From Porpolomopsis calyptriformis (lineage: Eukaryota > Basidiomycota > Agaricomycetes > Agaricales > Hygrophoraceae), in assembly GCA_951640195.1 (NCBI GenBank), contig OX621170.1, forward strand, positions 124,001 through 188,000: DNA of 64,000 nt, in the 5' to 3' direction. The position numbers and the translations under genes were made by a program. The notes under the pieces are model-generated. The model saw nothing but the letters and a program-made list of their open reading frames with translations. It had not been told where the DNA came from and searched no databases. Shown one piece after another: positions 4,834 to 26,181 of this stretch (the first letter of the stretch is position 1; each line of letters opens with the position of its first letter).

Positions 4834-4836
4834 ACC

Positions 4837-7800
4837 CTAGCCTAAAATAGTCCGATTAAGGGAGATTACCACCACCACATCTTGCCCATCCCAGACCACA
4901 GGTAACTTGGCAAAATGCGAGTCAACACAAGAGGCAGGATACACTTGCAGGGTTCCTAGCCTTGAGCTCCAAATTCGAGCTTGGAGGAATGGGTATGCCA
5001 GAAAAGGGTCCCTCAAATGAGTGTTGAAGGGTAAGTAGTGTCGAACAGCAACAAATATTTGGCATTCACCAGCAACCCTACATTGGACAATATGCTGGAT
5101 GCAACAGGGAGCTGGCATTTCAGCTGCACTTCTCTTGATGAGTGCGCAGCTGTTGCCTTCATGTTTTGAGCCAACAGAATACAGGATGCCCCCAATGCGG
5201 GTGTAGGGTAGGAATGTCCCTTCTGTTGGAGGGCTCTTTGTGAGGATCTTCAAAGCTTCTAACAATTCAGATGGGATGGCAGTGGTCGCGTCATCAAAGG
5301 TTTCATCATCACTAATGTCGTCATGTCCAGAAGCCGAGAATGAGGCCATGTCGTGGAACAGACTACCAGTCGCTGCAGGATTGATGAGTTTGTGGAACAC
5401 TGACCCACAGTGGCGTATCGCATCTGGACACCCCATTTACAGCATCATGTTTCGCAGATTGGCTGCTCGAGTGAAAGATTGTGCCATTGTTTCTTCAAGC
5501 TCACCCAGCTTACAGCTTGTTGCGCTACGTTGCAGCATACCAATAATGCGCTCGAATGGATACACCCACCAAGCGTGAACAGGACCATATCTGACTAAAT
5601 ACTCTGGCAAATGCAGAGCCATGTGATGGTTCGGGTGGAACTCATATGTCGGAAATAATCTCTTCACACCCTGGATGTACGCTGTCATATGTTGGAGGAA
5701 AAGTGTTGCATTGGTGCGGGAAGTTACTCGCGACGTGGCAATTGTGGTAGCAGATACAAGAAACATGGTGACATCAAGAATGTCCTTACATCTCATCGAT
5801 CTCTCATCCGCATCAGGTGATATTGCCCACAATCGCACCAACGATGCAGGAATGTAGGTTGACCCAACAACACGCCATTGATCAGCTTTCAATTTTCCAT
5901 GACTTGGGGAGCCCAAATCTGCAGGCACAGATGGAAACCAAGATGGAGTAACCATACTTTGGATATCATGCCAAATTTCTTCGATATCTCCCCTCGTTAG
6001 AACATGACCAGCTTCCGTGGATGTTGACGCCGCAATATCTCGGGTTTTAGGTTGTACTTCTCTCTGGAAATGAGGAAAGTGAGCAGTGGCCTTTGAACAA
6101 TCGTGGAAGAAATCAATAACTTACCCAGTCAAGTAAACTCTTGACTAAGGTCTTGATTGGCATTGAGCGCGAGGTTTCTTGGGTAATCCCAATGAGTTCA
6201 CAACAAACAAATTGCAAGCAACATTTCAGGCAGCATTCAAACCTCTTTACAACTGTCTGCCGGGAATTTCGGAGCTGGTCAGTAAGAGGAGCTTGGAGCC
6301 ACCTCTGTAAATTGCGAACGCATTTCACTTCTTTGCTTGTCATGGAGGCTGATGGATCTGGTAAATCAACTTTGAAAACGGGTGTTTCTGGATGTGATTT
6401 ATGGTCCAAGTCGATACCAAGGATCTGGGTCATATGTGTCTTGAGCAGACCTAGGAAAAGATTGTGCATGGGATCCACAATGATAAATTGTGCGGGGTCA
6501 AAATAGGGCAGTCGCAGGAGCTCAGACCAATGAAGGCCACTGAGGTCGAGATGAGATTGTGCAATCTGTTCTGTCTCAGCGTCTTTGAAAGCTTCTGCAA
6601 ATGCGCGGCATTCATCGTTGGTACGTCTCTTCCAGGATGAAAGGTCGGTGTTGCCATATCCTTCCTTATGCCGGCGACAATGACAGATAGAGCAAAAATG
6701 TTCATGTGACGTTGCAGCAAAGCATGCAGCCTTGCGAGCACCAGGAAGGTCGCATACTAGTGCAACGAGAGCACAAATGACCTTTCATCCAGTAGCAAAT
6801 TTATAGGTTCGAGAAAAATTAAAACCTTGCTCCCAAGAGTCACAGAGATCAGTGATAAGTGGACGTAGATAATGATTGATTTCATCGAGTTGTGGTTCTC
6901 GAGGACCAGGGATAATACCAGCCAGGTACATGTTCTCAGGCTTGTACCGTAGGTTGGGCGGGAGGTTCAGACACACGAGGGATATGAGACTGATCGAGTT
7001 CTTCTTGCCAGACTGTTTCATGGTATAAGGATTGAAGAAATCGACGCAAAGACTGAAAATGTAGTGACCTTCATCGCCACCATCCTTAAACAAGGGTACA
7101 TCCTCACCCCTCACAGGACCGCGAAAAGTGTGAAGGAGATCACCGTGAAAAATATCTGACATTACTCCATCCACGTTTTGATCATCCACACGTCTCCAAG
7201 TCTCATCCATGACATCCTCAATACCCAGTCGAGCCAGCAATCCCGAAACCCAATCCTTAAGGTCAAAGTAAACAAATGGTTTGATGGGTATGCGAACCCT
7301 TCCCTTCCTGGACGTTCTTATCTGAAGGAGCCGCTCCTTACAACATGGACCTTTGGCGCGCTTTTGGTAAGTACAACTCTCTGGCCAGAGTGCAATACGA
7401 TCACCATCGCGGTATGTTGGGGCATAGGTCTGGCTGCACTTTGGACAAACCGCATACACTATTGACCGTCCGTCCAGGTTGAACTTGTTGAGCCCAGCTC
7501 GGGAATTGGCGGGGAAGTCGTTGAGGAGTTTCTGTTGATTTGGGGAGAGTTTGGCTATGCCAGTTTGCTTGAATGCCAGTTCCAGGGCCCACTTTGTCAA
7601 GCCCAAAATAAAACTACAGCCTCGCCGCGGAACATGCAAGATAACCTGGCATGCTACTACCATGAAGAGAACGACTTGAACGATGGGGTCGGCATTTCTG
7701 AGTAGCGAGGAAAAATGATGGCCTATAAATGCGTATCAGTACTTGTGGATTCAGCTTTGATGACACTATACTTACTAGTGTCATAATAAATACCTCCACA

Positions 7801-8358
7801 TTTTGTGGGCCTTGGGAGGGATTTCCGTTCCTTGCGCGTTGTCTCGAGTGCTGCCTTGATTTCCTGAAGTTCTTCTTGAATGTTTTCTTTGAAAGCCTTC
7901 ACCGAAGGGTCGATGGCTTTGATGTGAGCGAGATTGGATTTGAAGATACGACATTGATCATGAATGTCACGAAGGGGGAATGTTTTGATGCTATCACTGG
8001 ACAGCGTTCATAGGGAATGGATTTTTCGAGAGGTTTCCTGCGATAAGGCTTTGACCTGTGTATCGATGGCTTCAAGTTCGGTAAACTGGCGGTCAACTCG
8101 TGCTTCTCAACGCGTCTGAGGTTTTGATGGCAACTGGCGTAGGCTGGGCAAGTCGGGATCGCTGGACACTTCATTGTTAAGGGTTAATCCCGATAGTAAA
8201 GTCCCGATGTCCTCAACATAGGTGTTGACGACATCCGAGGCTTTCTTCCTGGCTTTACGGGCAGCTTGGGCTTTGTTGCTGATAAGATGTGCCTTAAGCG
8301 TGCGAGCGTCGACGTCTTTGCCATTGCAATTATATGAAATACAATGGCAAGAGGGCAT
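4837..8358 (-). pseudogene. Tnp2-family (EnSpm/CACTA) transposase, inactivated
   Basis: The gene starts at 8358 with a Cys/His motif (CHCISYNCNGKDVDART...H), followed by a predicted coiled-coil (about 8100-7830). A typical intron (GTAAGTATAG to TTTATAG) leads to the conserved HHFSSLLRNADPIVQ block. Downstream are the Tnp2 landmarks KCSQTYAP, FYNPYTMKQSG-like FFNPYTMKQSG, IIPGPREP, SICHCRRHKEGY, ELLRLPYFDPAQFIIVDPMHNLFLG with the conserved Asp, and RYGPVHAWWVYPFERIIGML. These match cut-and-paste transposases that act at CACTA ends. At least three in-frame stops break it: a TGA after KIHSL near 8015, a TGA near 6782 before KVICALVA, and a TAA at 5437-5439. The C-terminus ends at 4837, 3 bp from the left inverted repeat. 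It is probably the former transposase of the large element. Exon limits other than those named are approximate. Confidence 0.85.
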
Positions 8359-8485
8359 CTTTGAAGCAGGAGCCTATATAATAGAAGCGGTGCGCGTTAA
8401 TATGAAGGGGTTCGTAGCGCGGCGATTGCAGTAATAGCGATGCACGTTAACACAATGCACAGTGAAGCTACACAGAGCATGTGAG

Positions 8486-9070
8486 GATCCGCGATGAACT
8501 CAGTAGATTGGACCAAGCGAGGGGAAGCGAGGAGCTGAGAGCGAGTGGACAACAAGGAGCTGAGTGTGAGGGGTGGCAAGGGCTCAAATGATCCGCGGTA
8601 AACCCAGCGGATTGAACCAGGGGCTGAGAGCGAGAGTGGAGGAAGTGAGGAAAGCGAGGAGCTGACTTGGATACAATCCGCGGTAAACCCAGCGGATTGA
8701 GAAGCGAGGGGTTCAGCGAGGGGCTGAAAATAAGGGTGGCAAGGACTGTTACGATCCACGGAAAACCCAGCGGATTGAACCCAGTGATGGAGCTGAGAAC
8801 AAGATCTGAAAGGGACCTAGATCCGCAGTACCCGAACGATCGAGTTAAGCGACAAGTTGAACGGGTAAGAATAGTAGAGTGAAGCGTACGTGGTAACCCA
8901 ACATATGTGGAACCGATCAAGCTAAGGGTGCGGCGCTGTATGGCACAATTGAACAGCGTGGGGAAACTCCAGCGTGAGAGAGATGCCATCCATGGTAGGC
9001 TGGGCTAGGGAGGCGCTATACCTGGTAACCCAAGGTACATGAGAAGCATCATACCTGGTAGCCCAAGGTA
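8486..9070 (+). repeat. Array of short inverted repeats with core GGTA-CCCA, upstream of the Tnp2 gene
   Basis: Units have complementary arms around a core of the form GGTARCCCA. Clear ones are at 8591-8612 and 8676-8697 (arms ATCCGC/GCGGAT, core GGTAAACCCA), 8754-8775 (one arm mismatch), 9019-9037 and 9052-9070 (arms TACCT/AGGTA, cores GGTAACCCA and GGTAGCCCA). Degenerate copies lie near 8486, 8821 and 8888. The arm sequence changes between sub-clusters but stays complementary. The array sits between the start of the Tnp2 gene (8358) and the opposite-orientation array at 9202-9512. Confidence 0.7.
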
Positions 9071-9201
9071 GACGACTAAGGAAAGCTGAAAATTCAAAGT
9101 CAGCGCTCTTCAAGTGCTTGAGTATTTGGCAATATTTGGCAATATTTGTTCCCCTGTGCCAAAAAGTTTCAAGTCCGAACTCTCAACTCTCACGCAAACC
9201 A

Positions 9202-9512
9202 CATCCATTGGGCTACCGTGGATGTCGATCTTCTCGACTCTCACCCAAGTACATCCACTGGGCTACCATGGATGTCGACCTCCTTGACTCTCACCCCCAA
9301 ACCACATCCACTGGGCTACCAGGGGTGTCAATCTTCTCGACTCTCACCCAAGTACATCCACTGGGCTACCGTGGATATCGACCTCCTTGACTCTCACCCC
9401 AAAACCACATCCACTGGGCTACCGTGGGTGTCGATCTCACTCCCACCCATTGGCTACCTTGGATATTGATCGCCGATCGATCACCGTTGGGCTGCTCGAC
9501 TCCATTGGGCTA
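9202..9512 (+). repeat. Array of short inverted repeats with core TGGGCTACC (opposite orientation)
   Basis: Units at 9202-9224, 9252-9274, 9305-9327 (degenerate), 9355-9377 and 9408-9430 have arms CATCCAC or CATCCAT, matching right arms GTGGATG or ATGGATG, and the core TGGGCTACC. A last unit near 9493-9512 has arms TCCAT/ATGGA and core TGGGCTAACC. Spacing is about 50 bp, with a recurring flank of the type TCGACTCTCACCC. The core is the reverse complement of the core in the array at 8486-9070. Confidence 0.75.
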
Positions 9513-9622
9513 ACCATGGATAAAGTCCTGCTAACTACTACACAATCCAGTTCCGTTGCGCTACCTACATTCACTGAACGACTTGTGTGGTATATTCTAC
9601 CTAACTCCAACCCTCCCTATCC

Positions 9623-11876
9623 CTAATCATCCCTTTCCATATCCATCATTTCCATTTCAGAGGCAGGATCAAGGTCCTCCTTTTCCCATGCGCTTAGCTT
9701 TCGAAACCAGTTTGGATCGTAGAAATTCTGCGGAAGCCCATGAATCGCTTCACCCGCGCTGTCATTATACGCAGGCCGCTTTCGCACTCGGGGAGATGTT
9801 CCGGCACGAGTGTCTCCATATGCGTTGGAGCCGTTGTAGTCCTTGTCTATCCGTCGCAAATATTTTTCCAAGTTCTTCGATCTCCATTCTTGTCTTTTAA
9901 CATGATAACATCATCTCCTGTCGTCTTTGTCGACCTCGCTTTCATCCGAGCTCATCCCACCAACGCCAAGTGTGTCAACCAGCTCGGACATGAAGTCCTA
10001 TCCCTCATTGCCTCCTTCCGCGTTGGTCAACGCTATCTCGCGTCTGGTGTTGAATAGCTACATTCACAGATTAATCAAGATGGATCACGGGTGTTTCCTC
10101 TACTCACATTCTTTCGCCGAGTTCTTCGCCTTGCCCTCCTATGAAACATTTGGGAGTTGGCCTTGAGCCGTGCCTCTACAGCCTCTTCATCCTCGTCGTC
10201 ACGAGCCTTGGACTGATTTATGAGCCGTCTAAGGCAATCTAGGCGGTTGTAAAACATCTCCTTGATTTCTGACATTGTTGCCTCGAGTAGGGGTGTCTCG
10301 TTCCTCACAACATCCAGGAAATACTTGAGAAAGTCACTGAAAAGTGACTGATTCCATTTAGACGTCGACCCCGCGCTCCAGTCTACCCTCATCGGTTTCA
10401 TTCGAGGACAGGGTCTGATGCCTTCCTCAAATGCCTCGACATCTTCCCGGGATGCTCCTGTGTTGTTTTTAATGTCAGCGTCGCGCCGAATTCCCAGACA
10501 CTCGTTCATCGTAGTCCATATCCGTTTCTATTACATCTCAGTTCAAAATAACAGTCGAGACATCATTGTTCTCACCAATAATTTGGTCCTGTCTGGAATG
10601 CGAGCACTTACTGTGCGCGCGTCTTTGAAACGTCCCCGCCGCTTCAGGTGTTTGGTGCTTGGCTTGGATGTTTTCTTTCCCTCCATCAGCTCCCGTATCT
10701 CATTTATCTTGTCCATCATCAGACGAAACATTTGGTTGACGCCGAGACTTCCCTCTCCGATTGGAGATGATGAGGAATGCTCAGATAACTCTTCCGGTTC
10801 GCGATTACTGGGTATTCGAGTTCGCATTTTCAAGGGAGGTCCACCGCCTCCCATTGGTTGAGAAATTTTTCGTTGCTTGCCAAGCGACAAACGTACTGGA
10901 GGTTGACGCTCTTCGTCATTGTCATCATCTTCATCGACTTCTAGCTTGCCTTCCGCCTCAGCTTCTGACTCGTCTTCAACTCCCATCTCGGCTTCAACTT
11001 GCAACTCGGCTTCAACTTGCAACTCATCTTCGACTTCCACCTCGTCCCCCTCTTCTGACTGTTTACATACCATTACGTCCACTCGCCCTTTACCCTTGTT
11101 AACTCGTTCCGCATCACCAGCTCGGCTCACCGCTTCGTCTTCCTCGTATGTATGTAGTGAGGGTGTTACTTCCCTCCATTCGTTGCACCCCATTTCGCTT
11201 TGTGGTGTGTTAACTTTCTTGAGTTTCGCAATCTTCTTACCTGCATAAGATTTATCTAGCATTTGCAGGAGAACCCTCACCTTCAATTTCAGCTGTTCAA
11301 TCTCTGCTGCACTCTCATCCTCTTTCCATAAAGTATCTCCCTTTACCTGGTTGAGTCTCTCCGTTAACAACCGCTGAGTGTTCTCCAAGCCACCAATCTA
11401 CTCCAGTGAGTAACCTCCACAACTACTAATGAGAGATTAAACTTACAGTTTGCTTTAATTGCTCTGCCTCCTTTGTCGTCTGGAATGATAGCCATTTGTA
11501 GTCTTGATTGAATTGCATGTACCTCCTTTGGTACCGCTCAGCCTGCAGTCTTGTCAATACCTGTACCATCGATGTGCTTAATGCTTACATTCATTTTGGA
11601 CCTTGCTTGTAGTCTAGAAATAGTGATCGGTTTGGGCTTTGTTCTGTTAACGATCCGAACTTTCGCTGGTTGTGGTGCAACTATATTAGGTGGGCTGTGG
11701 GCAGGCACCCTCGATGTCATCTCAGTCATCTCAGCCATTCCTGGGATGGGGGTAGACATTGGCGATGGTGCCTCAAGGTTGGGTGAGTTGGGTGGGTTGC
11801 TGCTATCCATCTTGTCGAAGGACGAAGCCTCATCTGCATCAGCCAGTGCTTGCATCTTGGTGTTGAGGAAATCCAT
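9623..11876 (-). pseudogene. Uncharacterised Agaricomycete coiled-coil protein (MSSDES motif family), broken
   Basis: A multi-exon gene can be followed leftwards from an ATG at 11876. Introns fit at 11588-11543 (GTAAGC to CTGCAG) and about 11436-11393 (GTAAGT to GAGTAG), and further ones lie near 10600-10535 and 10085-10040. The product has a Pro/Ser-rich start, a coiled-coil (KEAEQLKQ to LLQMLDKSY), a very acidic repeat tract (EVEDELQVEAELQVEAE...), a basic region (RRARRRTRRKN), then GGMSSDESE and a C-terminal GLPQNFYDPNW motif. I recall the last two from a large family of unknown function in mushrooms. Two in-frame stops (TAG before DFMSELVD near 10000 and TGA after VDKDDRR near 9910) mark it as decayed. 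It lies inside the large element and could be cargo. Confidence 0.55.
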
Positions 11877-12447
11877 TGCGAAAGTAGTGGGCGAAGTCTG
11901 TTGCCTGGTCCATTTATTTATTATGAGAACAATGGACTACCTTGTACAGTAATGTAGGCAATACATCCTTAGAAGCCTGATTTGTGCGATAATGGATTAA
12001 TAGAAAAGTGTGTCTTGCGCCAAGTGGCGGCATGGTGAAATGCTTGCTGTCTCCATGTGGCTTTGTGCTAATATCCGCAGTGCGTTCTAGAAACTCAGCA
12101 TGAGACCACGCTTGCTTTGTCAGCTTGTGGCTTTGTAGGACACAACACTGGAATTGTACAATGAAAAATTCGTAATTAAAGATAGAAATGTAGTAAGAAG
12201 TATGTTTAATTATGATTTTTCAAGGTTTGGGGGAAAAATTTGATGCACTCACTGAGTGTGTCAAAAGGAACGTAGGATGATTAATAATGAAGGGTGAGCG
12301 AATCAAATTTTTGAGCGCAATGAGTTAAACCGAGATGCAATGAGGTCAAAAAGGACTCGGAATAACCTACCATCACATAGTGACACCATGTCGAGTCAAT
12401 GAAGACCGACACCCAAACCAAACTAAGGATGGGAAACCAGGGATGTG
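11877..12447. other. Intergenic stretch without recognised feature
   Basis: This stretch lies between the start of the MSSDES-type gene (11876) and the 3' end of the DIRS-like recombinase (12448). No convincing coding frame, tRNA or repeat was seen. The boundary of the DIRS-like element presumably lies here but no terminal repeat could be recognised. Confidence 0.4.
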
Positions 12448-13304
12448 TTACAAGTTGTGTTTCTTTTGGTAAGATAACATCACCGATTGCAGTATGCTGT
12501 GACGATTGGAAGAGCCTGGAGAAGAGAGAAAGAGGGGTAGAATGGCATCTATCTGGTGCCAGTATTCTAGGAAGGCTCTCGAACACCATCGACCTTAAGT
12601 AGCAACGATATCTGGGGATATTCCAGATAATAGCAGATGTGTGGCACCGCCAATCCGAAAACCATGACCAGGTGCCTGAGTCAGTTTGGTGCCATGCCAG
12701 ATAGCATTGCAATAAGATAAGAACCAGTCTCGAGTTAGTGGAGACCAAGACCCAGAGGCAGTCTCAAAGGAGAATAAAGGAGCCAAGGGGGGGACATTAG
12801 AGTTGCTGGATAGGTGGTGTTCAAGTGCGATAATCGGACAAGTCGGATCAGAGCGGGAGGTAATGGAAATGAGAGCGCCATCCCGCTGTGTGGTCTTTGA
12901 CCATGGAATGTGAAGGGATGCGAAATGGGTGTTGTTGATATAAGAGAAGGATAAGGGAGCTGAGCGAGAGACATGCTTGCATGGATCCGCGGCATTCACA
13001 GAGGGGATCAAAAGTTCACCAAGATGATAACATGACCAAAAGGCAATGGAGGCAACTGCCCATACAGAGATGTCGAATGAGTTGGTAAGGTTCAGATTGG
13101 TATGGAGAGAGCATAAGTGCTCAAAAGTAATGGGGGGACACTTCAAGCGCTTGGAGGAGGGAGGTACCAGCTTGCAAGCACCTTTCTTAGCCTGAGTCAA
13201 TAAGTCACCTCTAGACCAAGGAGCACCATTGATAGTGTGCCAGACGTGAAGAGCGGCGAGCCAAGTATTGATGGTGGAGTCGGAGAAGTGACTGGCAGCG
13301 TGGG

Positions 13305-13443
13305 TGTTGCGATTGTGCCCTAATCACAGATCAGCTATATATACCGAGAACCACATACAATACCAGCTTGGTATTGTGACGCTTTTGGCTGAATGGTCTT
13401 AGGTCATAAGTCAGGTGACATAGTTCTCGGCGCTGCCTTAACA
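13305..13443 (+). repeat. 5' LTR of TRIM-like element
   Basis: 139 bp, tips TGTTG and TAACA, preceded by GTGGG. Nearly identical to 13849-13987. Confidence 0.85.
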
Positions 13444-13848
13444 TAATACCAAGCTAATCAATAAGGCCCAGGTTCGAATCCCCTTGGTGGCAATTACTAA
13501 GATGGGGGAATATGTAATGCTACCGTGAGATTCTGAGCACACATGTGGTTGTTTGCAGACTGGTCCACATGGACTGCTGGTAGTCTGTCGACGAGAGTAT
13601 GCACGTGCTAAGGGGTAATGCCACGAACCCGTAGACCCCTGTGTCAGCATCCCGTATCACTCAGGGATGTAAAAGAGACCGAGCGCCCCCTCACCAGCGC
13701 GCCAGGTGCAATTGGGTGCCATCTAGATGGCTATGAATCTGACACATCGGAATGGCTGGGACTGAAAGGTTGGGTGTTCTATATGGGGCTGATCCCCCGG
13801 TGATTCCTGGTTTGGCGAATCAGGATGCTTCGTGTGAAGTGAGGGCAA

Positions 13849-13987
13849 TGTTACGATTGCGCCCTAATCACGGATCAGCTATATATACTGAGAACCACAT
13901 ACAATACCAGCTTGGTATTGTGACGCTTTTGGCTGAATGGTCTTAGGTCATAAGTCAGGTGATGTAGTTCTTGGCACTGCCTTAACA
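13849..13987 (+). repeat. 3' LTR of TRIM-like element
   Basis: 139 bp, tips TGTTA and TAACA, followed by GTGGG. A GA-rich tract (GTGAAGTGAGGG) just upstream could be the polypurine primer. Confidence 0.85.
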
Positions 13988-14411
13988 GTGGGTGATGAAG
14001 ATAGCTAGTAGAGCTTCAGAGGTGGGTATGCGGTCAGATTCAGGAATATTGAGGTGGTCACAAAATTGTGTGAAACGAAGCAGACCAGATCCGTAGTTAC
14101 TTCTGGTGTTCATGTCTAGGGATAGAACTAGAACCTCAAACATTCTCTGTTGATCTGAAATGGGAAAGAGTGTGGAGAGCGAATCCTTGAATCTCTGAGA
14201 GTGAGGAGAGACCCAGAAAAGCAGACGATCACTGGCCAGTACATGTGGGCGGAGTGGGGAGGGGATGATCTTGTTATTCTTGTGTGGTCTCCGTGGAAGA
14301 CAGGGACAGGGGAGATCTCCTGCTGCCGGTGAGTGATGAGCTTCCAGCAGTACCACCAGTTTTGCGGCTTCCTTGTGAATGTCGACATTAGCTAGGAATT
14401 CAGCAAGAAAT

Positions 14412-15541
14412 TTATTGTCGCGCATGTTGAAAGAAACGAGAGATATGTGAGTGAAGAGAGAAGGAAGGTTCTAGTCTAGTGTCGGAAGAGGGGAGAAGAC
14501 CTCTCGAAATGGGATCAGCAAGATTGAGGGCAGACTCTACGTAAGTTAGGTCGATGGAGAGGTGACGGGAGTCTAATACTGCCTCTGTGCGAGCTATGGA
14601 TAAGTTCACTTCAAAATTGTGGGAACAACCCTTCAGAAAGGTGCCTATCACCCCCACATTGTCACTGTGAATGAGAAAAAGAGTGTGATGATGGCTGAGG
14701 GAGGTGATGGCAGAGATGGACAACTCTACTGCGACAGCTTCTAACCAACCTATGTCCCGACCTGGACCTTTCCAACCTTCCAGGGAGCGCCATGCATCCC
14801 AATGATGATCAATGATGATGCCCACCCCCCACTCAGTGGAGGCGTCGACGTATATGTTGATGTCGATTGGGGTGGAAGGGGGGGATAGGGTGCAGGTGAA
14901 GAGTGGGTCTTGAAGGGCCAATGACCACCAAGAAAGGTCGGTGAGGACAGAAGGTGGGGGCCAATGAGGAGCAAATTTGTTTGTGAAGGAGCAGAGCCAA
15001 TGAAAAAGATTTGACAGATGTGAGCAGCCTCAAAGATGGATGAATGATAAGTGAGAGAGAGAACTGCAGATCATTTTGACATCCTTCTTGAGAATGCAAT
15101 GGGTGTTGCACTTGTTCAAGAAATTAAGAAGGCGACTGAGATGTTTCAGTTGCTTCTTCTCCTCAATGGAGACCATCTTGCGGGAAAGGTCCCACATGAA
15201 GCCAAGATATGGAAAAGTGGAGAGAAAGTCTTGACCTTTCTCCTTGTGCCATGGAATGCCTAGAAGGGCTGTAACCTGTTTAACATGAGAGAGATCGTAG
15301 TTGTATTGGAGATCAGGGAATTCAGATGAGCGAAAGGAACTATTGAGAGAAGGAAGATGAAATATGGTGAAGTCGTCCACCCATTTGATAATGGGATGGA
15401 TACCCAAGCTGTAATAAATGTCGACCGTGGCATCAGCAACTTCACCTTGGAGACTATGTGCAGAAGTGGCACCGAATGGTACATTGTGATCGATATAGAA
15501 ATTGTCTCTGACACGGACGACGATGAAGCGCTTGTGATCAA
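14412..15541 (-). pseudogene. Reverse transcriptase/RNase H of DIRS-like element, 5'-truncated
   Basis: From 15541 the frame reads a partial RT palm with IDHNVPFGATSA and the catalytic KWVDDF motif (about 15395), followed by the thumb region FLSTFPYLGFMWD. After an in-frame TGA near 15030 (HL-stop-GCSHL, most likely CGA to TGA) it continues with an RNase H domain (IYVDASTEWGVG with the first Asp, HSDNVGVIGTF with another acidic site) and ends at 14412. The order and the motifs match the RT-RH polyprotein of DIRS-like elements. The 5' part of RT is missing. The 14-bp overlap with the recombinase start at 14425 suggests coupled expression. Confidence 0.7.
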
Positions 15542-15545
15542 GTAA

Positions 15546-16059
15546 GGACCTTTATCACTATTATCTGTATTTCAGTATTGTAAATATATTTGGATGAAAC
15601 TCTGAGGGTTGGGCTATCTAATACAGTACATTTGAGTCTGAAGACCTGATCCTCATCTGGAGAGGGTCAGGCTATTTTCTCATTTCCGCAGTGAGTATTG
15701 CTGGTTTTCAGACACAGCATTGTTGGCTTTCAGTGAATAATGTAGTGGATTTACTTCCCACAGTTATACTAGATTTTGCGCCGTTCTTTGACGGCAGTGA
15801 ACCTTGTTGCCGAAAGGGTGATTGAAATACAGGATTTATTCGTCAGCGATTATATAGAAACAGAACAATGGTGGAGAGATCCATTAGAAAGATTCAGACT
15901 CATGGGGGTCCCAGCGAGACGTGAAAGACTCCCATGAAAAAATGCACAGTCCATCATAATTGTCGGTTGTGAGTGACCTTGTTTGCACCAAGGTTATAAG
16001 CCATAACGTAGTGAGCGACTTGAGGCAGCTCCAGTCTGCTTCATACAATGTATAATAAA
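15546..16059. other. Intergenic stretch without recognised feature
   Basis: No coding frame, repeat or RNA gene was recognised between the truncated DIRS-like RT and the gene ending at 16060. Confidence 0.4.
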
Positions 16060-16799
16060 CTATTTATCCTCTTCTGATAGCCTCTGCCATTCCTTCCCCT
16101 TCCCCTTACCCCGAGATATTGTCTGTCCTGCAAGTGCAACCGCCAGTCGTCGGCAAGCGCGCTCAGATGTGCACTTCAACCACGCCTTCAGAAGATCAAT
16201 GACTGGCCAGCAGTCTTCATATCCTTGCAATTCTGGGAACCTGGTCTCAGCCTGAAGATGTTAGTGATGAACATATCGTCGAATAATGGCCCACTTACCT
16301 CCACACAGAGGAGATTGATGTCATCTTTGTTCTGAGATGAATAGGAGACGGAACTGTCAAGGATATTTTCTGCTTTCTTGTGCACGTAATTCTGTTCAGA
16401 GTTAGCACATTTGCATACCTTTATCTGATGAACCCTTACTTGTAATTTTGCAAACTGATCAGGTCTCCAGCCTGACTTCTCCAGCGCCTCGGAAAGCCTG
16501 TATCCACCGGAATGAGGACGGGAAACGGTTCCCTTAGGTTTCTTTATGAGCGGGGTCACTACATCCGAGTCATCGCCATATGAAGATGAAGACATTTCAT
16601 CGTCATCCATGGTGTCGTCATCGGTATCATCACCATCGGTGTTGCAATTAGCCTTGAAGAAATTGGGAGACGAATAAATTTGTCGGTTAATGTGGGAGAA
16701 CTCCTGGTGAGTTGTGAGAAGCGGCAGGGGTGGCAAAATTACAGGGTGGAATTCAATTCCAGTAGTAACGAGGGGAAGGTGTTTCTGCAGAAAATGCAT
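16060..16799 (-). CDS. Uncharacterised small Agaricomycete protein
   Basis: The frame from the ATG at 16799 runs through a strongly acidic stretch (DGDDTDDDTMDDDEMSSSS) and the motif RLSEALEKSGWRPDQF. Introns are apparent near 16440-16393 and 16300-16251, both with GTAAG-type donors and AG acceptors. Between them lies YVHKKAENILDSSVSYSSQ, and the last exon has FPELQGYEDCWPVIDLLKAWLK and ends at 16060 with a basic tail. I recall the YEDCWPV-type ending from a common family of unknown function in mushrooms. No stop was seen inside the inferred exons, so the gene may be functional. It lies within the large element and could be cargo. No domain or function can be assigned. Confidence 0.55.
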
Positions 16800-17145
16800 T
16801 GGGCTAATGAGGTGTGGGCATCCATCTCTGACAGGAATTTATTCGTGAAAGAGTTACGCTAGTAAGGCACTTGGATACAGCTGACCAAATAAGGAAAATA
16901 ACCTTAAAGGCGAGCTTTGGCGAGCTAGCACTGCGTCATCCAGGCTAGTGAAAAAATAGAGACCCTCAGGCACGATGGTGTTTATTCATCGAAGGGATCT
17001 AGGCACAATGGAAAATGGTGGCGTCGCAAGCAGCAAAAAAAAAGTGAACAATGGGGACCCATTGCGCTACATTGGCAGAGTTTTGTCGCAACAGGTAATG
17101 GGTAAAGGTACATAAATACGGGATTCCAATGAGGGGAGCTATAGA
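16800..17145. other. Divergent intergenic region
   Basis: Separates the start of the minus gene (16799) from the start of the WD40 gene (17146). It presumably carries both promoters, but no specific element was recognised. Confidence 0.4.
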
Positions 17146-18639
17146 ATGCCTTCCTCGAAGTTCGAGCTTTGCGTGAGACTCAAAGGCCACACCGACAGCA
17201 TCAACTGCGTCGCTTTTACCAGCGTAGGTGATATCGTGTCAAGCGGAGGTAAGCTTTGCCACATGGTTTTTGGCAAAGTCTAATCTTTTGACAGGAGACG
17301 ACCAGACAGTAAGGATATGGACCCTCGAAGATGGGTGTTGTCGCCAGATTCTGAGGGACCATGCATCCAGATGGGGGCAAATCACCACCATGCGCTGGGT
17401 CGCAGATGGGACTTTGCCCGAAATCATTATATTTGGCACTGGCCGAGGGCAGCTACTGGGATACCAGTCTAAGAAGCCATCGGTGTGTATATACAGCATA
17501 CCAGTTTGCTACCAAGCTCACCTGCACACAGGCTTCTCTCAAGGAACTATTCTCAATGTCAGTGTTTGACATTAGCGTGGAGTCGATCACTCACGATCCC
17601 GAAAACAAGAGGATCGCCGTCAGCAGCCATGATGGTTGCATCCATTTATTCTCATGGAATAAGAGTGGTAAGGGGATAATGAAAACATTTCTGAAACAGT
17701 CCTGACCAATCCTTTAGATGAACTCAAGTTGCTGTGGGCAAAGACGATACCAGAAACAACAATATTGAGAGGCGTACACTTCCTAAAAAAGTACACGACC
17801 CTCGCAGTGTTCGGACTTGAGAGTGGAGCGATGTGAGTATGTCTATGCACATCAAAACGAACTGAAGAAAAGATTGGATTAGCACGTACTTTGATATCGC
17901 AAGTGGTAAACAAAAGCGAACCTTGCATATGAAATCAGGAATGTAAGTGGTTTACATACAACATTGGGATGACAGGCTAATTGCATGTTTCAGAGGGAGC
18001 GTAGATCTAGCCGTGAATGGGAAGATGATTCTTATTGACAACCTGCGAGATGGCTTCGACGTGTATGAGCTCAACAGCCCATTCCCGGTGCAGTCATTCA
18101 GAGTTCGATCATCTAAATGCTACACCAAACAGGGAGTGTTTGCGGAATTCCTCAAGTTTGCTGTTTGCGGAAGCGATCACGGCACGGTCTATGTGTTCGA
18201 TGTTTCAACGTCGAAACTCGTCGAGACCCTCCACCATGGAGGCGCCAACACGCCCGTAAGAACCGTCGAGGTGAGGATTTCATAGCCAACCAGGAAACCT
18301 GTGATGGACTCGAGCAACAGACATTCCATGATCGAAAGCAAGGTTTGACTTTAATTGCGAGTGCGAGTCAGGGAAAGACCCCAGAGATTTGTTTGTGGGA
18401 ACGAGACACCCTGGTGAGCTGACTGAATGCATGACAAAGTCGATCTCTAACGGGAAAATCCTTAGGAGAATGACCATCGGCAGCTGGAAGATGTATCAAG
18501 GAACTGGGTGGCTATATGTGTCGCCACCATCTTGTTTGCAGGTTTGGCGATGTTTCTGAAGTGGGATATGGTGGTCGGTAAACATTCTGAGAGGTGGGCT
18601 CACGCGTTCGCATCTATTTTAGTAGCGTATGGATTGTAG
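17146..18639 (+). CDS. WD40-repeat protein with C-terminal membrane anchor
   Basis: Start ATG at 17146 (MPSSKFELCVRLKGHTDSIN), chosen because the first WD40 blade GHTDSINCVAF follows directly. Exon 1 ends at 17248, and the intron 17249-17294 (GTAAGC to ACAG) restores the frame into GGDDQTVRIWTLEDG, a clear WD blade end. Further blades include HDPENKRIAVSSHDGCIHLFSW, VDLAVNGKMILIDNLRDGFDVYEL and FAVCGSDHGTVYVFDVSTSKLVETL, with several short introns between them. The C-terminus has a hydrophobic segment (WVAICVATILFAGLAMFL) and ends at TAG 18637-18639. WD40 propellers are binding platforms. The terminal membrane segment suggests a tail-anchored protein, which I infer. No stop was seen in the inferred exons. 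It lies inside the large element and may be cargo. Its partner is unknown. Confidence 0.65.
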
Positions 18640-18663
18640 GAGGTGAGGGGAATCTGATAACAG

Positions 18664-19224
18664 CCATGGTAACCCTATGGAGCGTCTGCGGATGCTAGAT
18701 GAGTTAGAATCATTGCAGGGCATGAAATAAGAAGGCTTACAGTCGCGTGAAAGCTTGGGGTGAGCGTGTCCATGGTAGCCCGATGGATGCTGTCACCGCG
18801 CATGAAAGCTTCGGGTGAACGCGTCCATGGTAGCCCAATAGATGCTGTCACGAAATAAAAAGCTAGGGTGAGCGCGTCGATGGTAGCCCAATAGACGCTG
18901 TCACCGCGCATGAAAGCTTCGGGTGAACGCATCCACAGTAGCCAATAGATGATAAAGCTAGGGTGAGCGCATCCATGGTAGCCTGATAGACCTGACATCA
19001 TGTGAAGGCTTGTGGTGAACGCGTCCATCACCGCTAATGAAGTCAGAGGACATTATCCACGGTAGCCCAATGGATTGCGGAGACGAGGATCTTGAGCAAT
19101 GATAGAGATTATCCATGGTAGCCCAATGGATTGCTGAGATGGTATAAAGGCAGTGGCTGACTATCGGTCATCCATGGTAGCCCAATGGATGAGAGACTGC
19201 TCATCCGTAGTAGCCCAACGGATG
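18664..19224 (+). repeat. Second array of short inverted repeats, core GGTAGCCCA
   Basis: About a dozen units. Perfect or near-perfect ones are 18874-18898 (arms GCGTCGAT/ATAGACGC, one mismatch), 19111-19131 (ATCCAT/ATGGAT), 19169-19191 (CATCCAT/ATGGATG) and 19202-19224 (CATCCGT/ACGGATG, core AGTAGCCCA). Weaker ones lie near 18664, 18771, 18822, 18930, 18968 and 19053. The last two perfect units differ by a compensated pair (A-T to G-C), which shows pairing rather than primary sequence is kept. The array lies between the WD40 gene end and the opposite-orientation array. Confidence 0.8.
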
Positions 19225-19356
19225 GAAGTGAAGATGAAACTCAGACGAAACTCAGACTTGTGCAAATCTATAAAATAAAACCAAATCAAACCAAACAAAT
19301 AAGCCAAAGCAAACAAGCTTGATATTTCGTGAGCTTGCTCAACTTTGACCGCCATA

Positions 19357-20000
19357 CATACATTGGGCTACCATGTATGCTTACTTTGACCACCATACAT
19401 TGGGCTACCATGTATGCTTACCTTAATCAACTACAACATACATAGGGGTACCGTGTATGACTCGATTGTCCTTACTCAGTCCTTATCCACTTCAAGATTT
19501 ACAAGCCACAAAGTCAGCGCTCAAGTTCAAGTCCCAGCGCGCCGCTTGCTGGCCTCCTCGCCCTCCAGTCATTCTCACCGCGACTCAGTACGTTGGGCTA
19601 CCACGTACTCCGTCGCTTATCTATTCGTTTTCTATCTACTCGTTTAACTCTCGATATCACCTCTTGGTCTCTGGCTCCAAATACGGCAATTAATTGCAGG
19701 CCACGCGAACAAATAGATACAAATCTACCGAAAGCTATATATTGCGCGACTTCAACTTTTTCTTCCTTCAGATGATACCATCAGGTGAACTGAGATATCA
19801 CGCTTCCTCAAACCCTCTCTAATCCATTTGTCATTGGGTTATCTGAGACAAGTTAACATCCTACTCAAACATCTCGCATCCACTTGTCATTGGGTTACCC
19901 GAGACAAGTTAACAACTCATTGCCCCCTGCCTTGTCATTGGGATATCCAAGACAAGCCAACAACTCCACCGCACCTTGTCATCGGGATATCCGAGACAAG
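19357..20000 (+). repeat. Second array, opposite orientation, core TGGGCTACC
   Basis: Units: 19357-19379 and 19394-19416 (arms CATACAT/ATGTATG), about 19437 (CATACAT/GTGTATG), 19587-19609 (AGTACGT/ACGTACT), then 19828-19851, 19883-19908, 19931-19956 and 19975-20000 with arms TTGTC or CTTGTC paired to GACAA or GACAAG and cores such as TGGGTTACC or GGGATATCC. It ends about 95 bp before the start codon at 20095. The same order, core GGTAGCCCA then core TGGGCTACC then gene start, is found on the minus strand in front of the Tnp2 gene. Confidence 0.8.
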
Positions 20001-20094
20001 CCATCGCCTTTCACTCACTCGCTTGGATCTTCTATCCCGTTTCCTCAGCGTGTAGAACTTCGCCCTCCCGTTTTTACGTAGCTCACTGTCAATA

Positions 20095-22873
20095 ATGAAA
20101 TTTGAGACTCAAGGCCGAGTTATCATATTCGACAGCGAGACATTCTTCTCCCCCAATTCTTGCCGGGATGTCACCCTTCCATCCCCCCTCCCCCAGACCG
20201 ATGACCGGTTGAAGGATCCACTTGGACCTCGTCCCAAATGCAAGGACATCATGCGCCCTCGTTGGTTATCCCAGGAATTCGGTTACCTCACTTTCATTCC
20301 CCTCTTGCCTCACTACACTGGCGCTTTTCGCAATCTATTGATGATCCCTCCGATTGAGAAGAGAGGGGATGGGAGCTATGGGTTACCTCAAGCAATGATA
20401 GACTCTTGGTCCAATCTTGAGAACGTCTCTCTCAAGGTCTTGCAGGCCTTGCAGGCTACTGCCGCTGGGGGACTAGGGCATAAGGTTTTCCAGTTGGTTT
20501 TACCCCACGATTTTGGTTATTCCCGTAGCCATTCCTCAGCGCAGATCGCCCGTCGCCAAGCGAACATTTCTCGGGATTGGTTTGCCGTTCTTATGGGGGC
20601 ATTGACGTATATCTTCATGGCCTGGGATTTCAACCTGATGGGATACGAAGTGAGAGAGAGATTGCTAAACTTGGGACTCTCGGACGAGTGGGTCTCGCTC
20701 CTTCAAACCTCGGACATTTTCATTCGCAACATTGAGCGCGTCGGGTGCTTCCTCGTACTCAATGATCCCTCCTACGATTTTCCTGAGCTCGGTCTCCTCA
20801 ACTATTGCAATATTCCCCTGTGGTACCAATACACTGATCGCGAAAAGTCAATGCTGATCAAATCTCCCAGTTTCAGTCAAGTGTGGGGATCGACGGAAGA
20901 CCAGCTTGTGTCCCCAGTCATCATCAACAATGGTATCATTGTCGCCGAGTCTACCTCTGCAGTATGGGCCCCTAATCCCACTCTCTCTTCAATATGGGAT
21001 GTTCACTCTACCCCTGTTGATTGGACACAGCCGTCAGCTCTTCCCCCTCCCCAACCCACTTCGTCGAGGCCAAGACCTCACGGGGAACCACCATCCGGTC
21101 AGCGGCCGGGTGAGACCTGGCAGGAATTCTTCCTGAGGCGAGACAAGGCGAATGAGGAAATCAAGCGGAAGGAAACCCCATCGCAACGTCAGGCTCGTGA
21201 GTCCCGAGCAAAGAATCCAGGCCTTAATAAGGCTACATTCTGGCAATGGCTGAAGGATGATGAAGGAAAGTTGGTCCGCACTTGGGTAGAACGCGCTGAG
21301 GGTCAGGATTTATATTATCACTATAAGGGAAGATATACAAGATATGACCCTTTCCGCTGGGAATGGGATTTCTGTGAGCAAGTCGGCTTCCAATCTTTCA
21401 GTAGTATGGATGACGATCCCTCAGATTATAACAGTTCTGATAACAATGCAAGTTACTTCGGTGACTCAAACGACAATGGACTAGATAACAACCCCCCCCC
21501 ACACCACCTCCCGAGGATGAATTCCCCCAGCTCCCCGCGGTGTTTGCAATTCTTGACCTTCGGTACGGGTTTGTCGAGCCTCAAAGTCAAAGTGATCCGC
21601 ATATCCCCCCGAGAGCAGCTGATGGGTGGAAAGGGGCTATGATAGCCCTCGGTCACCAATCGACTCCATGCCCAGATAGTCCCCCCACCGATGCCGCGAT
21701 TGACTTTGTGAACCAACTTCTCCAGATGACACATAACGCGAAGGAGAATCGCACCCAAAAGACCCCTTTGGGCCCCTCAACCTCAGTCTGCGGAACGCAA
21801 AGAGAGAATGTTGAGCGTAGTCGTGCTAGACGCGCGACGCACCCCATCGCACCCTCTCTACCTCCGATTATACTGGACTATGCATCGAACCTCCCTGTTC
21901 ATTGGGATCTTCACCCACAGCACCTGCGTCGTCCAGCCATTATGGCAAACCTAGCTGGAAGTCGGCGTATTTCTGTCCCTTCCCGTCGTCCGAAAGTAAA
22001 TTTCGAAGAACATTTTTTGTCCCCGTCTGCCAGAGACGATGAATGGATGCTAGCGTTGACAACCCCCTCCGATTTGATTCATGTTTGCCGATTGCGCACG
22101 TCCACGTCGCGCGATACTGCATCCCGGCTCGTAGCCATTGGAATCCCCTTCCGCACTTTCATGCGCCTCAACATCGACTGGACTCCACTGAGGAGGATGG
22201 GCACTCGAGACCGTGTGTACATCCCATTGGAGATGGAGATACCTTTCCGCAATAGGAATTACGTCTTCACGAGAAGTGACTACAAGGTCTACGAGTGCCA
22301 TAGAGACATCCTCCTCAACCAACCGCATGCCCACACTCTTGCTCTCAAACTCGGCGGGATTGTCTGGCGGTTAGCCCGGGAAGTCTGCTCTGACGAGGAA
22401 GCTCTCTTGGGACCATCAAAGACGTTGAGGGTTTATGGCTTCGGTACAATCTTTAAGGACAGAGAAGATATCCTGTGCGAAGACTACCTCTCGGACAAAG
22501 AATTAGATCTTATTTGTGGACTACATTTAGTTTTGACAGGTACATTGACATACTGACTTAGAACTATCTCTGTCTCACCTATCTTACATTTGCAGGGAAT
22601 AAAGAGCAGATCAAAAAAATGTCATGGTGGCCGCTTCACAGCACATGGATGTCTGGGTCTGCAGGTTGGAATGTGGGATTTTGGACACCAGACAACAAAG
22701 TGTGGTTCCAGCGCTGTCTTCGCGACATTCACAGTGGGACAGCGCAGCCGCGCTCAGCTTTGGAGTAGCTCGCAGATGTCAAAGGGTATAAGCGTGCCTT
22801 GAACTTGAAACACTGTATCAATGCTGCCGCCGTACATACTGTTAATGAAGTAATAGGCTCCAATGTATCTTAG
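20095..22873 (+). pseudogene. Uncharacterised Agaricomycete protein (Trp-rich family), frameshifted
   Basis: The ATG at 20095 opens a long frame with RPRWLSQEFGYLTFIP, then GETWQEFFLRRDKANEEIKRKETPSQRQ and a YDPFRWEWDFCEQVGF motif. At a run of nine C (about 21492-21500) the frame must shift: the continuation, beginning near DEFPQLPAVFAILDLRYGF, is in another frame down to 22539, which one lost C would explain. An intron at 22540-22595 (GTACAT to TTGCAG) leads to MSWWPLHSTW and NVGFWTPDNKVWFQRCL. A TAG at 22766-22768 stands where the family usually has Trp, and the frame then runs on to 22873. I recall the family from many mushroom genomes, function unknown. The homopolymer shift could also be a sequencing error. 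The gene sits just inside the right terminal repeat of the large element. Confidence 0.6.
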
Positions 22874-22929
22874 CTTTCTCTTATCTTTCTCTTATCATAA
22901 TAGATTCTACGCAGACTTAGAAAAATAAG

Positions 22930-23448
22930 GCACACTTGGTGCACACTTAGTGAGCGCTGATCGCATGCCCAGCGTGCCTCTCAGCGCATGCTGGATGTTA
23001 AATGTAAAATTTTTCATACAAATTTTTCAACTATAAAAATATTTCTGTTAAACTTGAACATTTCTTGGTTACTTTGTCGGTCTCTGAACCAGCTGTAAAA
23101 CCTTATATTTTATAGCCAATCTTATTGGTTGCAAAAAACAATGAGAACTTGAAATTTGGTTCGGATTTAGCACCAGTACGCATTTCTCCTTTTGTTGGTG
23201 ATATTATTGGTGGCTAAATCATTTTTAAATGTATCATTTTCCTTTATTATGGATACAGGTTAAATGGCACTTGAAATCTCAAATTAGACAACCCATAATA
23301 CTTAAATAAAATGTCTAGCTTCGCTTTTATTTTATTACCACAAATGTGTGATTTTCCAGGTGTCCAAATAGGGTGCTAAATTTCAACAAGCAGTCAAAGA
23401 TTTAACTGGTTATTTTGATGGTCACAAAATTCGACCCCGCCACCAGTG
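22930..23448 (-). repeat. Right long terminal inverted repeat
   Basis: A 519-bp inverted copy of 4313-4833 (about 98% by eye). The outer tip ends in GCCACCAGTG and is followed by TAT, as on the left side. It lies 82 bp upstream of the NLR start codon. Confidence 0.85.
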
Positions 23449-23530
23449 TATGTCAGTCTATGTCAGCCGACGGACTTTTCACTGGGTTTCATCCATCGAT
23501 AGTACCAATCTACCACCTACTTCCACAAGC

Positions 23531-26181
23531 ATGACGACGTCTATAGTGAGCTCGAAAGTCAACATCGCTGGTAGAGATCAGACGATCGTTTACTACAACG
23601 TTGATCCGGGTAAGCTGTCGAATCGGTTTCAAAGTGTGTTTACTGATGCGCCCATGATAAGATCAAGAACGTCGCAATATCACAGAATGGCTCTCAGCAC
23701 TCAACTTCTCCGCAACCCAGAACGATTTTTTTGACAGGAGCGAAAAGGGTACTGGAAAATGGTTGCTCAAATCCGGAACATTTCAGAACTGGCGGGATGG
23801 GATATCACAGGCGTTATGGTGTCCTGGAAATCGTAAGAGTCCATCTGCATCGATCTCGTCGATCTCATTAGTTGAACAGCCGGCGCTGGGAAGACTTTTC
23901 TTGCGTAATAGTATTATCTGAACCGCTCATCGATCAAGGCTGACAGTTATTTGTTAGATCCATCGTTGTAAACCACCTGCAGACGTTCTTCAAGGATCGT
24001 AATGTCGGAATCGCGTGCATCTATTGCAATTATAAGGAACAGACGATGCAGACTGCCAAGAACCTTATCGCAAGTCTACTTAGGCAACTGGTGCAAAACA
24101 GACCAGCGATATCTGACCATATCAAAGCGTTCCATGGATGTCATCAAAATCAAAGCACCTTCCCCACGTTGCATGAGGTTACCACTGCTTTGGAGACTGA
24201 AATCAAGACGTACAACAAGGTATTCATTATCGTCGATGGCTTGGACGAATGCTCTGAAGGTGACGAATCCCGGGCGGACCTTCTGACCACCCTTCGATCC
24301 TTGACTGGACCTGTCAACATTATGGTCACCTCCCGACCCCTAGCTTCGATCGAACAACATTTTCACGAAGCGTTGCGTATCGATATTCACGCGACTGATG
24401 AGGACGTGACCACGTTCATTCAAACCCAACTCGTCAAGTACCCTCATCTGAATAAACTCCAAGAGACTATCATAACGAAGATTGTTGAGAATGCGAAAGG
24501 CATGTAAGTATCTCCAATGTTACGTCTAATGTTTTGTCTCATTCTCCGACAAGGTTTTTAGTGGCATGCCTGCACATGAATATGCTGGCGCAACAGAAGA
24601 CCATCAAAGGAGTCAAGAAAGCTCTCGATCAATTACCAAGTGACATGAACGCTATTTATGATCAAGCTATGGATCGAATCGAGGCACAATCGGAGGACGA
24701 TAGAGAACTAGGAAAACGGGTTCTTTCATGGATCACTTATGCCCGTTGGCCTCTGACTGTCGAAGAGCTGCAGCATGCTTTTGCTGTTTCACCTGATATG
24801 ACTGAGATGGACTCTGATGATTTCGTCTTCGACACGCAACTGACTTCGGTGTGCGCTGGATTAGTTGTCATTGATGGTCAACAGACTATTCGGCTTGCTC
24901 GTGAGTGGATCACACATTGCTTGAATAACATATTTAGTGCGTTATACAGATTATACAACTCAACAGTATTTTGAAAATCAACGTGAATCCCGATTTCCGA
25001 ATGCTGAGGCTGATATTGCGGCGACATGCCTCAGATACCTTTCGCTTGATGTGTTTGTGCATGGCTACTGCGAGAGCCAGGTCGAGTTCGAATCCCTTTT
25101 CACAAACAATCTGTTCCTTAATTATGCTGCCAAGAACTGGGGTCATCATGCACGTCCACACCAAGAGATTCTCAGAGACTTGATCATTGATTTTCTTCGG
25201 GATGATTCAAAATTCGCATCCCCCAGCCTGGTTATCATGCTGCCTCAATCATCTTGGCGCTGGCATTTAGAATGGCTTCCAAAGAATTTATCTGGAGTCC
25301 ATTTAGCTGCTTTCTTCAACTTGGACCAGATTCTCCGTTATCAGCTTGAAAATGGTGCAGATCCGAATTTAATGGATAGCTATGATCAAACACCCCTCTG
25401 TTTGGCAGCTACCAAGGGATGCCAGGATGCCGTGATGATTTTGGTTGCATGTGATGATGTTGACGCCGATTCGATGGATGTATGGACTCGAACACCACTT
25501 TCACATGCGTCTGAGGCAGGACATGAGGGTGTTGTGAAGTTGCTCATTGCGCGTGGTGTTGACGCCGATTCGAAGGACTCATGGGGTCGAACACCACTTG
25601 CATACGCTGCTAAGCGAGGACATGAGGGTGTTGTGGGGTTGCTCATTGTGCATGTTGATGCCGATTTGAAGGATTCGGATGGTCTAACCCCACTTTCATA
25701 TGCGGCTTGTCACGGGCAAGAGGGTGTGGTGAGGTTGCTCATTGCGGGTGGTGTTGACGCCGATTCGAAGGACTCACGGGCTCGAACACCACTTTCACAT
25801 GCGGCCCGGGAGGGACATGAGGATGTCGTGAAGTTGCTTATTGCGCGTGGTGTTGACACCAATTCGAAGGACTCATTTGGTCGAACTCCACTTTCGTTTG
25901 CAACTGAGAAAGGACATGAGGGTGTCGTGAAGTTGCTCATTGCGTGTGGTGTTGACGCCGATTCGAAGGACTCCTGGGATCAAACTCCACTTTCATACGC
26001 GGCTGAGAAAGGACGGGAGGGTATCGTGAAGTTGCTTATTGCGTGTGGTGTTGATGCCGATTCGAAGGACTCATTTGGTGACACTCCACTTTCGTTTGCA
26101 ACTGAGGGTGGGCACAAGGGCATTGTCAAGCTGCTGACCGAGAGAATAAGGATCGACACAGAAACCTCTATCCCTCAATGA
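23531..26181 (+). CDS. NACHT-ankyrin NLR protein
   Basis: Six exons fit without a stop: 23531-23609, 23662-23832, 23880-23904, 23958-24503, 24554-24900 and 24950-26181, giving 799 residues. A short N-terminal part contains WLSALNFSATQNDF. The NACHT NTPase follows, with P-loop PGAGKT at about 84-89 and Walker B FIIVDGLDEC at about 181-190, then a winged-helix-like region (VLSWITYARWPLTVEELQHAF) and a HYTTQQYFE motif near 390. From about residue 507 there are about nine ankyrin repeats, the last seven very similar (RTPLSYAAxxGHEGVVKLLIA). Such fungal NLRs sense non-self or injury and often trigger cell death on activation by nucleotide-driven assembly. The role here is inferred from family. Near-identical repeats point to recent shuffling. 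A large transposon sits 83 bp upstream of the ATG and may affect expression. Confidence 0.85.

Follow-up and report, generated by a model that had tools for sequence, protein, structure and literature searches.

Arrays of palindromic units with family-specific centres and covarying arms inside a CACTA-type transposon of Porpolomopsis calyptriformis

The closest described counterparts of the repeats reported here belong to plant CACTA transposons. These carry element-specific motif repeats in direct and inverted orientation that can form stem-loops, 14 of them in soybean Tgmt*; in En/Spm the motifs are bound by TNPA, and between subfamilies the motifs diverge (PMC2613891). Plant subterminal and satellite repeats are treated in PMC8978399, and fungal Plavaka and EnSpm families were reconstructed in PMC12730594; in the main text of the latter, the words hairpin, subterminal and tandem repeat do not occur, and palindrom occurs once, on another matter. 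No description of arrays such as those below was met for fungal transposons in the titles and abstract openings of the openly licensed papers that were searched. The arrays lie in a 64 000-nucleotide stretch of Porpolomopsis calyptriformis DNA (GenBank assembly GCA_951640195.1, contig OX621170.1, positions 124 001 to 188 000, forward strand; hereafter the window, to which all unprefixed positions refer) and are part of a 19.1 kb CACTA-type (Tnp2/Plavaka) transposon at 4313–23448.

Two blocks (8486–9525 and 18658–20003), separated by genes and other repeats, together contain about 30 palindromic units whose centre resembles TTGGGYTACC. A first-pass annotation, made from the letters of the window alone, had described more than 25 units with a common core in one region from 8486 to 20000; its unit count was borne out, and its single region resolves into the two blocks. 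Of 15 exact copies of the core TGGGCTACC in the window, 14 fall inside the arrays (0.23 copies expected for the whole window). Among sites with up to two substitutions from TGGGCTACC, an arm score of at least 5 was reached by 20 of 32 in the arrays and by none of 120 elsewhere in the window, against a background of 2.2 % of random positions. A covariance model (R1), built from 20 units as the annotation had proposed, gave 26 window matches at E ≤ 10, every one of them in the arrays; by construction, 20 of these are its own building units, and six are new. Adding four CTTGTC units that R1 missed brings the total to about 30.

On the left, array A (8486–8910, minus strand) has arms ATCCGC/GCGGAT around the centre TGGGTTTACC or TGGGTTACC, and includes a further unit at 8882–8910 (minus strand) and two degenerate units recognised by eye. 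Array B (9014–9075, minus strand) consists of two units with arms TACCT/AGGTA, and array C (9199–9525, plus strand), the inner block of this side, has arms CATCCAY/RTGGATG and is in part a 50 bp tandem repeat. On the right, the inner block is array D (18658–19227, minus strand; arms CATCCAT/ATGGATG, GCGTC/GACGC and CATCCGT/ACGGATG), in part a 55 bp tandem repeat; it is followed by array E (19354–19612, plus strand; arms CATACAT/ATGTATG and AGTACGT/ACGTACT) and array F (19825–20003, plus strand), which holds the four units with arms CTTGTC/GACAAG. Single-strand folding of ten units gave −5.4 to −12.6 kcal/mol for nine and −3.3 kcal/mol for the tenth, the stretch of which had been cut off-centre.

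Arm sequences differ between sub-clusters yet match within a single unit. In the 20 units of the model, 165 of 180 pair cells (91.7 %) held standard pairs, compared with a mean of 80.8 % after shuffling (0 of 500 shuffles as high); the covariation score was 0.377 against 0.193, and 18 cells were altered on both sides against 5.6, the count of pairs with any two-sided change being unremarkable (5 against 3.4; 69 of 500 shuffles). When right arms were permuted among nine sub-cluster groups, the observed pairing of 5.55 of 7 positions compared with a permuted mean of 3.58 (0 of 20 000 permutations), with unit 8892 placed one base off and its own score lowered accordingly. Within sub-clusters, own and swapped arms paired about equally (own minus swapped 0, −0.2, +0.17, +0.33 and 0), as expected since the units there are tandem copies. 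The covariation sits between sub-clusters, not inside them. The earlier statement that a change in the left arm is invariably matched in the right is too strong, 15 of 180 cells being unpaired; the compensated pair that it had pointed out (CATCCAT/ATGGATG and CATCCGT/ACGGATG, at 19169 and 19202) is present.

The limits of the carrier transposon were taken from comparison with a copy on contig C14, because this comparison shows where homology stops: it extends to 4309 on the left and 23448 on the right, and each end of the element matches one and the same end of the C14 copy, in opposite orientations. The terminal inverted repeats (left, 4313–4833, plus strand; right, 22930–23448, minus strand, placed by C14 homology and inverted-repeat alignment) align over 521 bp with 98.1 % identity. 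The element ends in CACTGG..CCAGTG (CACTG..CAGTG) and is flanked by a 3 bp target duplication, TAT, at 4310–4312 and 23449–23451 (single insertion examined). From left to right it comprises the terminal repeat, a transposase gene (minus strand), arrays A, B and C, gene2 (minus strand), a repeat-rich insert, a WD40-like gene (plus strand), arrays D, E and F, the ORF2 gene (plus strand) and the terminal repeat.

The transposase gene (4840–8358, minus strand; start codon at 8358 by comparison with the C14 copy) was assigned from Pfam matches of its pieces to PF02992 (Transposase_21; 44.2 bits, cut-off 28.6) and PF18759 (Plavaka; 28.6 bits, cut-off 26.3), with DUF4218 just under its cut-off. Gene2 (9626–11936, minus strand) and the WD40-like gene (approximately 17116–18560, plus strand) point with their 3′ ends towards arrays C and D, respectively. 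Both have homologs in related elements, those of the WD40-like gene at loci L060, L062, L064, L065 and L067; its match to Pfam WD40 (20.1 bits) lies under the cut-off of 27. The ORF2 gene (20095–22553, plus strand) consists of two overlapping reading-frame pieces, both with 0 Pfam families; three distant protein relatives (P0001–P0003) and 16 further match rows in the genome were found, some of these rows being two pieces of one gene. The predicted structure of the homolog P0001 (4-row alignment) had a mean pLDDT of 33.5 and was of no use.

The arrays thus occupy both intergenic spaces upstream of the outer genes, transposase and ORF2, and end 128 bp (8486 to 8358) and 92 bp (20003 to 20095) from the respective start codons. 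They lie 4.2 and 3.4 kb from the element ends, and neither the terminal repeats nor the outer 1.5 kb of either side contain any 9-mer three times. With its CACT terminal repeats, 3 bp duplication and Tnp2-type transposase, the element belongs to the same superfamily as En/Spm and Tgm, and it shares with them element-specific repeats capable of forming stem-loops. The arrays differ from the plant type in both place and build. The plant arrays lie near the element ends; in Tgmt*, a 7 bp stem motif recurs in all 14 stem-loops, and the distance from the terminal repeats is at most 159 bp and 732 bp (PMC2613891), whereas the window arrays lie at least 3.4 kb inside the ends and have a constant centre with varying arms. 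We therefore file them as a variant of CACTA element repeat arrays and not as a plant-type member. The Tnp2/Plavaka transposase matches link the element to the fungal Plavaka and EnSpm families of PMC12730594; Plavaka lineages A and B described in that paper end in TGT..ACA or CATCA..TGATG, in contrast to CACTG..CAGTG.

Related elements were sought in the same genome. Homologs of transposase and ORF2 form eight outward-facing pairs, the one in the window included, about 8.6–12.3 kb apart, and a pair about 26 kb apart on C12. Transposases of the related families are 32–49 % identical to that of the window; many copies have stops in the transposase and may be in simple decay. Both intergenic sides were examined in seven further elements (C9:286–298k, C1:3811–3822k, C6, C1:3157–3168k, C3, C4 and C9:1181–1191k) and the transposase side alone in three (C14, C12 and C9:881k); further transposase matches, most of them partial, lie outside this sample of ten (C9:1382k, C1:1154k, C1:3150k, C10, C11 and C2). 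The C14 copy, an 83 % relative of window 9578–12099, keeps the three left-hand arrays at the same place as in the window, in the order C, B, A from gene2 to transposase, and accounts for 13 of the 14 R1 matches across the 110 kb of genome sequence scanned.

Palindromes with a recurring centre were found in nine of the ten related elements, with three centre types beyond that of the window. Family 1 (window and C14) has the centre TTGGGYTACC; family 2 (C9:286k, C1:3811k, C6 and C1:3157k) has TTTTGG-N-CCAGA; family 3 (C3, C4 and C12) has GTTC(N)AAC and variants; and family 4 (C9:1181k) has GTGTTAACAC, with two units per side. R1 gave a single weak match in the first ten related stretches, so the families have a plan in common and not a sequence: shape, not letters, seems to be conserved across the related elements. 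Homologs of gene2 and of the WD40-like gene are placed inward of the arrays wherever this could be seen. On 15 of 16 sides (families 1–3), with the outer gene as the direction of reading, units of the inner block run antisense and those of the outer block run sense; this count used units that fit the centre patterns only, and in family 3, with its near-palindromic centre, the call hinges on one or two bases. Only the ORF2 side at C3 departs from this order, through an additional match at its inner end. The outer block stops about 30–190 bp before the start codon, as read on both sides of the window and at L047 and L061.

Arm covariation recurs in the other families. Own arms paired at 5.69 of 7 positions against 4.37 for swapped arms in family 1 (29 distinct units) and at 7.08 of 9 against 3.97 in family 3 (25 distinct units), with 0 of 20 000 permutations as high in either. 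When arms were clustered before permuting, family 3 gave 14 clusters (own 6.75, permuted 3.91; 0 of 20 000), and families 1 and 2 were merged into two clusters and one cluster, so that the test is silent there. In a profile made without a minimal stem score, pairing declines beyond the 8th, 4th, 10th and 9th position from the centre in families 1, 2, 3 and 4, respectively (35, 39, 17 and 3 distinct units); these family-specific distances give a unit length of about 24–28 bp, whatever the split between centre and arm. At position 4 of family 2, only 49 % of units pair, compared with 35 % when arms are swapped; farther from the centre there are smaller rises, at position 12 in family 1 and position 9 in family 2. 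The earlier suggestion that complementarity is kept is thus supported both across sub-clusters and in related families.

One rival account takes the units for decayed minisatellites, in which each sub-cluster arose by tandem repetition of a single ancestral palindrome and compensation is only apparent, caused by symmetric CpG transitions. Sub-clusters C, D, E and F are partly tandem repeats of 37–56 bp, covariation is not clear within sub-clusters, and the three two-sided changes found between close copies are all G-C to A-T. Double transversions between sub-clusters (C-G in 13 and A-T in 7 of 20 units at columns 7/23), the 14 separate arm clusters of family 3, and the recurrence of spacing, orientation and placement in diverged elements speak against it, and we regard it as quite unlikely.

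A second process that could yield pairing without function is fold-back copying, in which one arm is rewritten from its partner through template switching at short inverted repeats; the first-pass annotation had listed it. Template switching is known to homogenise inverted-repeat arms with compensatory-looking changes (PMC8794818 and PMC8604942). Hairpins maintained in this way resemble the units in that complementary arms change together (PMC8794818), and both the freely varying arms and mispairs that are alike on both strands are consistent with such an origin. Between close copies, however, 47 of 50 changed stem-pair comparisons were one-sided and three two-sided; pairs unpaired in both copies were dropped here, and the six pairings among four family 2 copies overlap, so that the events are not independent. 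One-step copying of arms is therefore not the usual source of change, and as a candidate it was not supported. Pairing that fades at a family-specific distance, pairing length that is similar across families, the recurrence, among the units listed for families 1 and 2, of that portion of the centre which is asymmetric, and centres that are ordered in orientation and not scrambled likewise disagree with it, and we consider fold-back copying doubtful, although new arms may have originated in this way.

The same annotation had raised RNA hairpins. Such units would act in transcripts (5′ leaders or non-coding RNA), the loop being read and the stem merely paired. A constant loop on a variable paired stem is the usual RNA pattern, and the units stand near start codons and point away from one point between inner and outer block. 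An RNA stem should tolerate G·U, and not A·C, on one strand; in 80 distinct stems, mispairs comprised 31 G·T and 35 A·C in gene sense, and 30 and 36 in centre sense, so that neither strand is favoured overall. Family 1 alone leans towards G·T in gene sense (16 to 9, p = 0.23). No Rfam match at gathering scores was obtained for window 8300–20200, and the centres of families 3 and 4 are near-palindromic. With covariation present and no overall bias of G·T over A·C, the RNA hairpin was not supported and is an unlikely account of the arrays.

The mirrored arrays raise the question of inversion. With respect to the outer genes, the central gene pair is found either way round: eight places have gene2 on the transposase side (C8, C14, C9:289k, C1:3820k, C6, C1:3159k, C4 and C1:1152k), and it is on the ORF2 side at C3 and C12 (weak matches, E 0.001–0.002; C3 also by tblastn, E 4e-7), with family 4 arranged like C3. 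The WD40-like gene lies opposite the gene2 side, and a gene2 match at C1:2631k was left out of both counts. Mirrored arrays would be natural substrates for inversion of the central pair, and if the arrays were recombination sites whose main role is to invert this two-gene segment, both orientations would follow, as would the exact 21 bp stretch that arrays C and D of the window have in common in inverted orientation and the two sides of family 4, which are inverted copies. Two or three inversions in the history of the group are explicable by ordinary recombination between inverted repeats, and we think a dedicated role of this kind very improbable.

The reading that we favour, with a probability of roughly one half, treats the arrays as cis-acting repeats internal to a CACTA-type transposon of four genes, in which an element protein binds the dyads and controls the outer genes together. 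Among the earlier suggestions we prefer a protein target linked to the Tnp2 element, since the arrays belong to that transposon, and our conclusion is that the units function as dyads in DNA, each family having its own centre. In favour are the place of the arrays within an element that has its own terminal repeats, their conserved position in the C14 copy, palindromes of other centre types in the corresponding spaces of related elements, arm covariation, similar unit length, mirrored orientation and the absence of an overall G·T/A·C bias. The centre also differs less than the spacer between the window and C14 (3 of 102 core, 17 of 164 arm and 119 of 560 spacer sites). Each unit would be a DNA dyad of 24–28 bp whose centre marks the element family. 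A protein encoded by the element would recognise such dyads at the DNA level upstream of both outer genes, reading either two half-sites or an extruded hairpin; the outer genes could thereby be controlled jointly, and the two halves of the element could be brought together. Candidate binders are the transposase N-terminus and the ORF2 product. At the loci read, a C.C pattern is seen at the predicted beginnings of the transposases, which had been selected for it.

Several points weigh against this reading. An ordinary dimer site need not by itself have covarying arms. Covariation is weaker in family 2 (14 distinct units; 3.21 against 2.55 of 4, 31 of 20 000 permutations), the arms of which are short (3–4 bp), and close copies of this family differ more in arms (15/336 and 20/408) than in spacers (87/2754 and 74/3180; cores 6/720 and 15/768), so that this family shows no conservation of arms. 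With only three two-sided changes, compensation cannot be demonstrated. The stem lists for the arm-swap and mispair tests were limited to stem scores of 3 or more, a filter biased towards pairing, and unit centres were picked by eye after the sequences had been read. A generic scan for palindromes with symmetric centres gave a clear excess in family 3 only (18 in 7.1 kb, against 70 in 190 kb of control; family 1, 4 in 4.0 kb; family 4, 5 in 5.2 kb; family 2, 2 in 17.3 kb); the few matches in families 1 and 2 are presumably due to their asymmetric centres. The element at C9:881k has a related transposase and no array at the expected place (L074, C9:879900–881000). Family 4 carries little weight because it has two units per side and its sides (L065:1265–1612 and L066:260–607) are near-identical inverted copies (96.8 % over 348 bp).

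A more tentative and less probable extension is a structural DNA code: dyads of near-fixed length, in which pairing itself and not the arm sequence is selected, would mark the two regulatory regions and be read, as extruded hairpins or symmetric DNA, by an element protein that diverges along with them; the centre would serve as an identity tag of each family, and the mirrored arrays would let the central genes flip. Short DNA hairpins near start sites are read as structure in the hairpin promoters of the N4 virion RNA polymerase. The likeness is one of working only, N4 being a phage with single hairpins and another polymerase. Known CACTA arrays are binding sites with a constant motif; in the present group this is inverted, the centre being fixed per family and the arms free but paired, so that the arrays separate shape from letters in a DNA element. 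The changed centre suggests how related transposons may avoid cross-control, and because copies of differing age coexist in a single genome, selection can be tested directly against copying.

Across the genome the centre shows no enrichment: TGGGCTACC was rejected as a genome-wide family (156 sites in the 33.5 Mb genome, 171 for the reversed pattern), and of 30 centre sites cut out on contigs C1–C3 one (L019) has an arm score of 5, which is the chance level. A different repeat without paired arms, AGAGTCGACAGC-TGGGCTACC-ATGGA, was seen at six of these 30 sites (L003 and L013–L017). Array D as a DNA query returned only its self-match in the genome. A relative of the WD40-like region (G000:C4:897874–903302; 76–79 % identical to window 15997–18026) had no array match in L049–L051.

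Inside the element, degraded frames at 12284–15551 (minus strand) are multi-copy in the genome at 65–68 % identity; we take this insert, by eye, to be retroelement-like (0 Pfam families for three pieces tried). Within it, direct repeats of 139 bp (13305–13443 and 13849–13987; 94 % identical) flank a segment repeated elsewhere in the genome at 94–97 %, and the segment between them is probably a recent insertion. Just left of the element lies a separate Tnp2-like transposase piece (1883–3838, minus strand; PF02992 with E = 0.00066, below the cut-off), and to its right lie NPHP3_N/NACHT and ankyrin-repeat reading frames (23944–26178, plus strand). Further right, at 38474–63862, reading frames in both orientations resemble, by eye, nested copies of Ty3-type retroelements.

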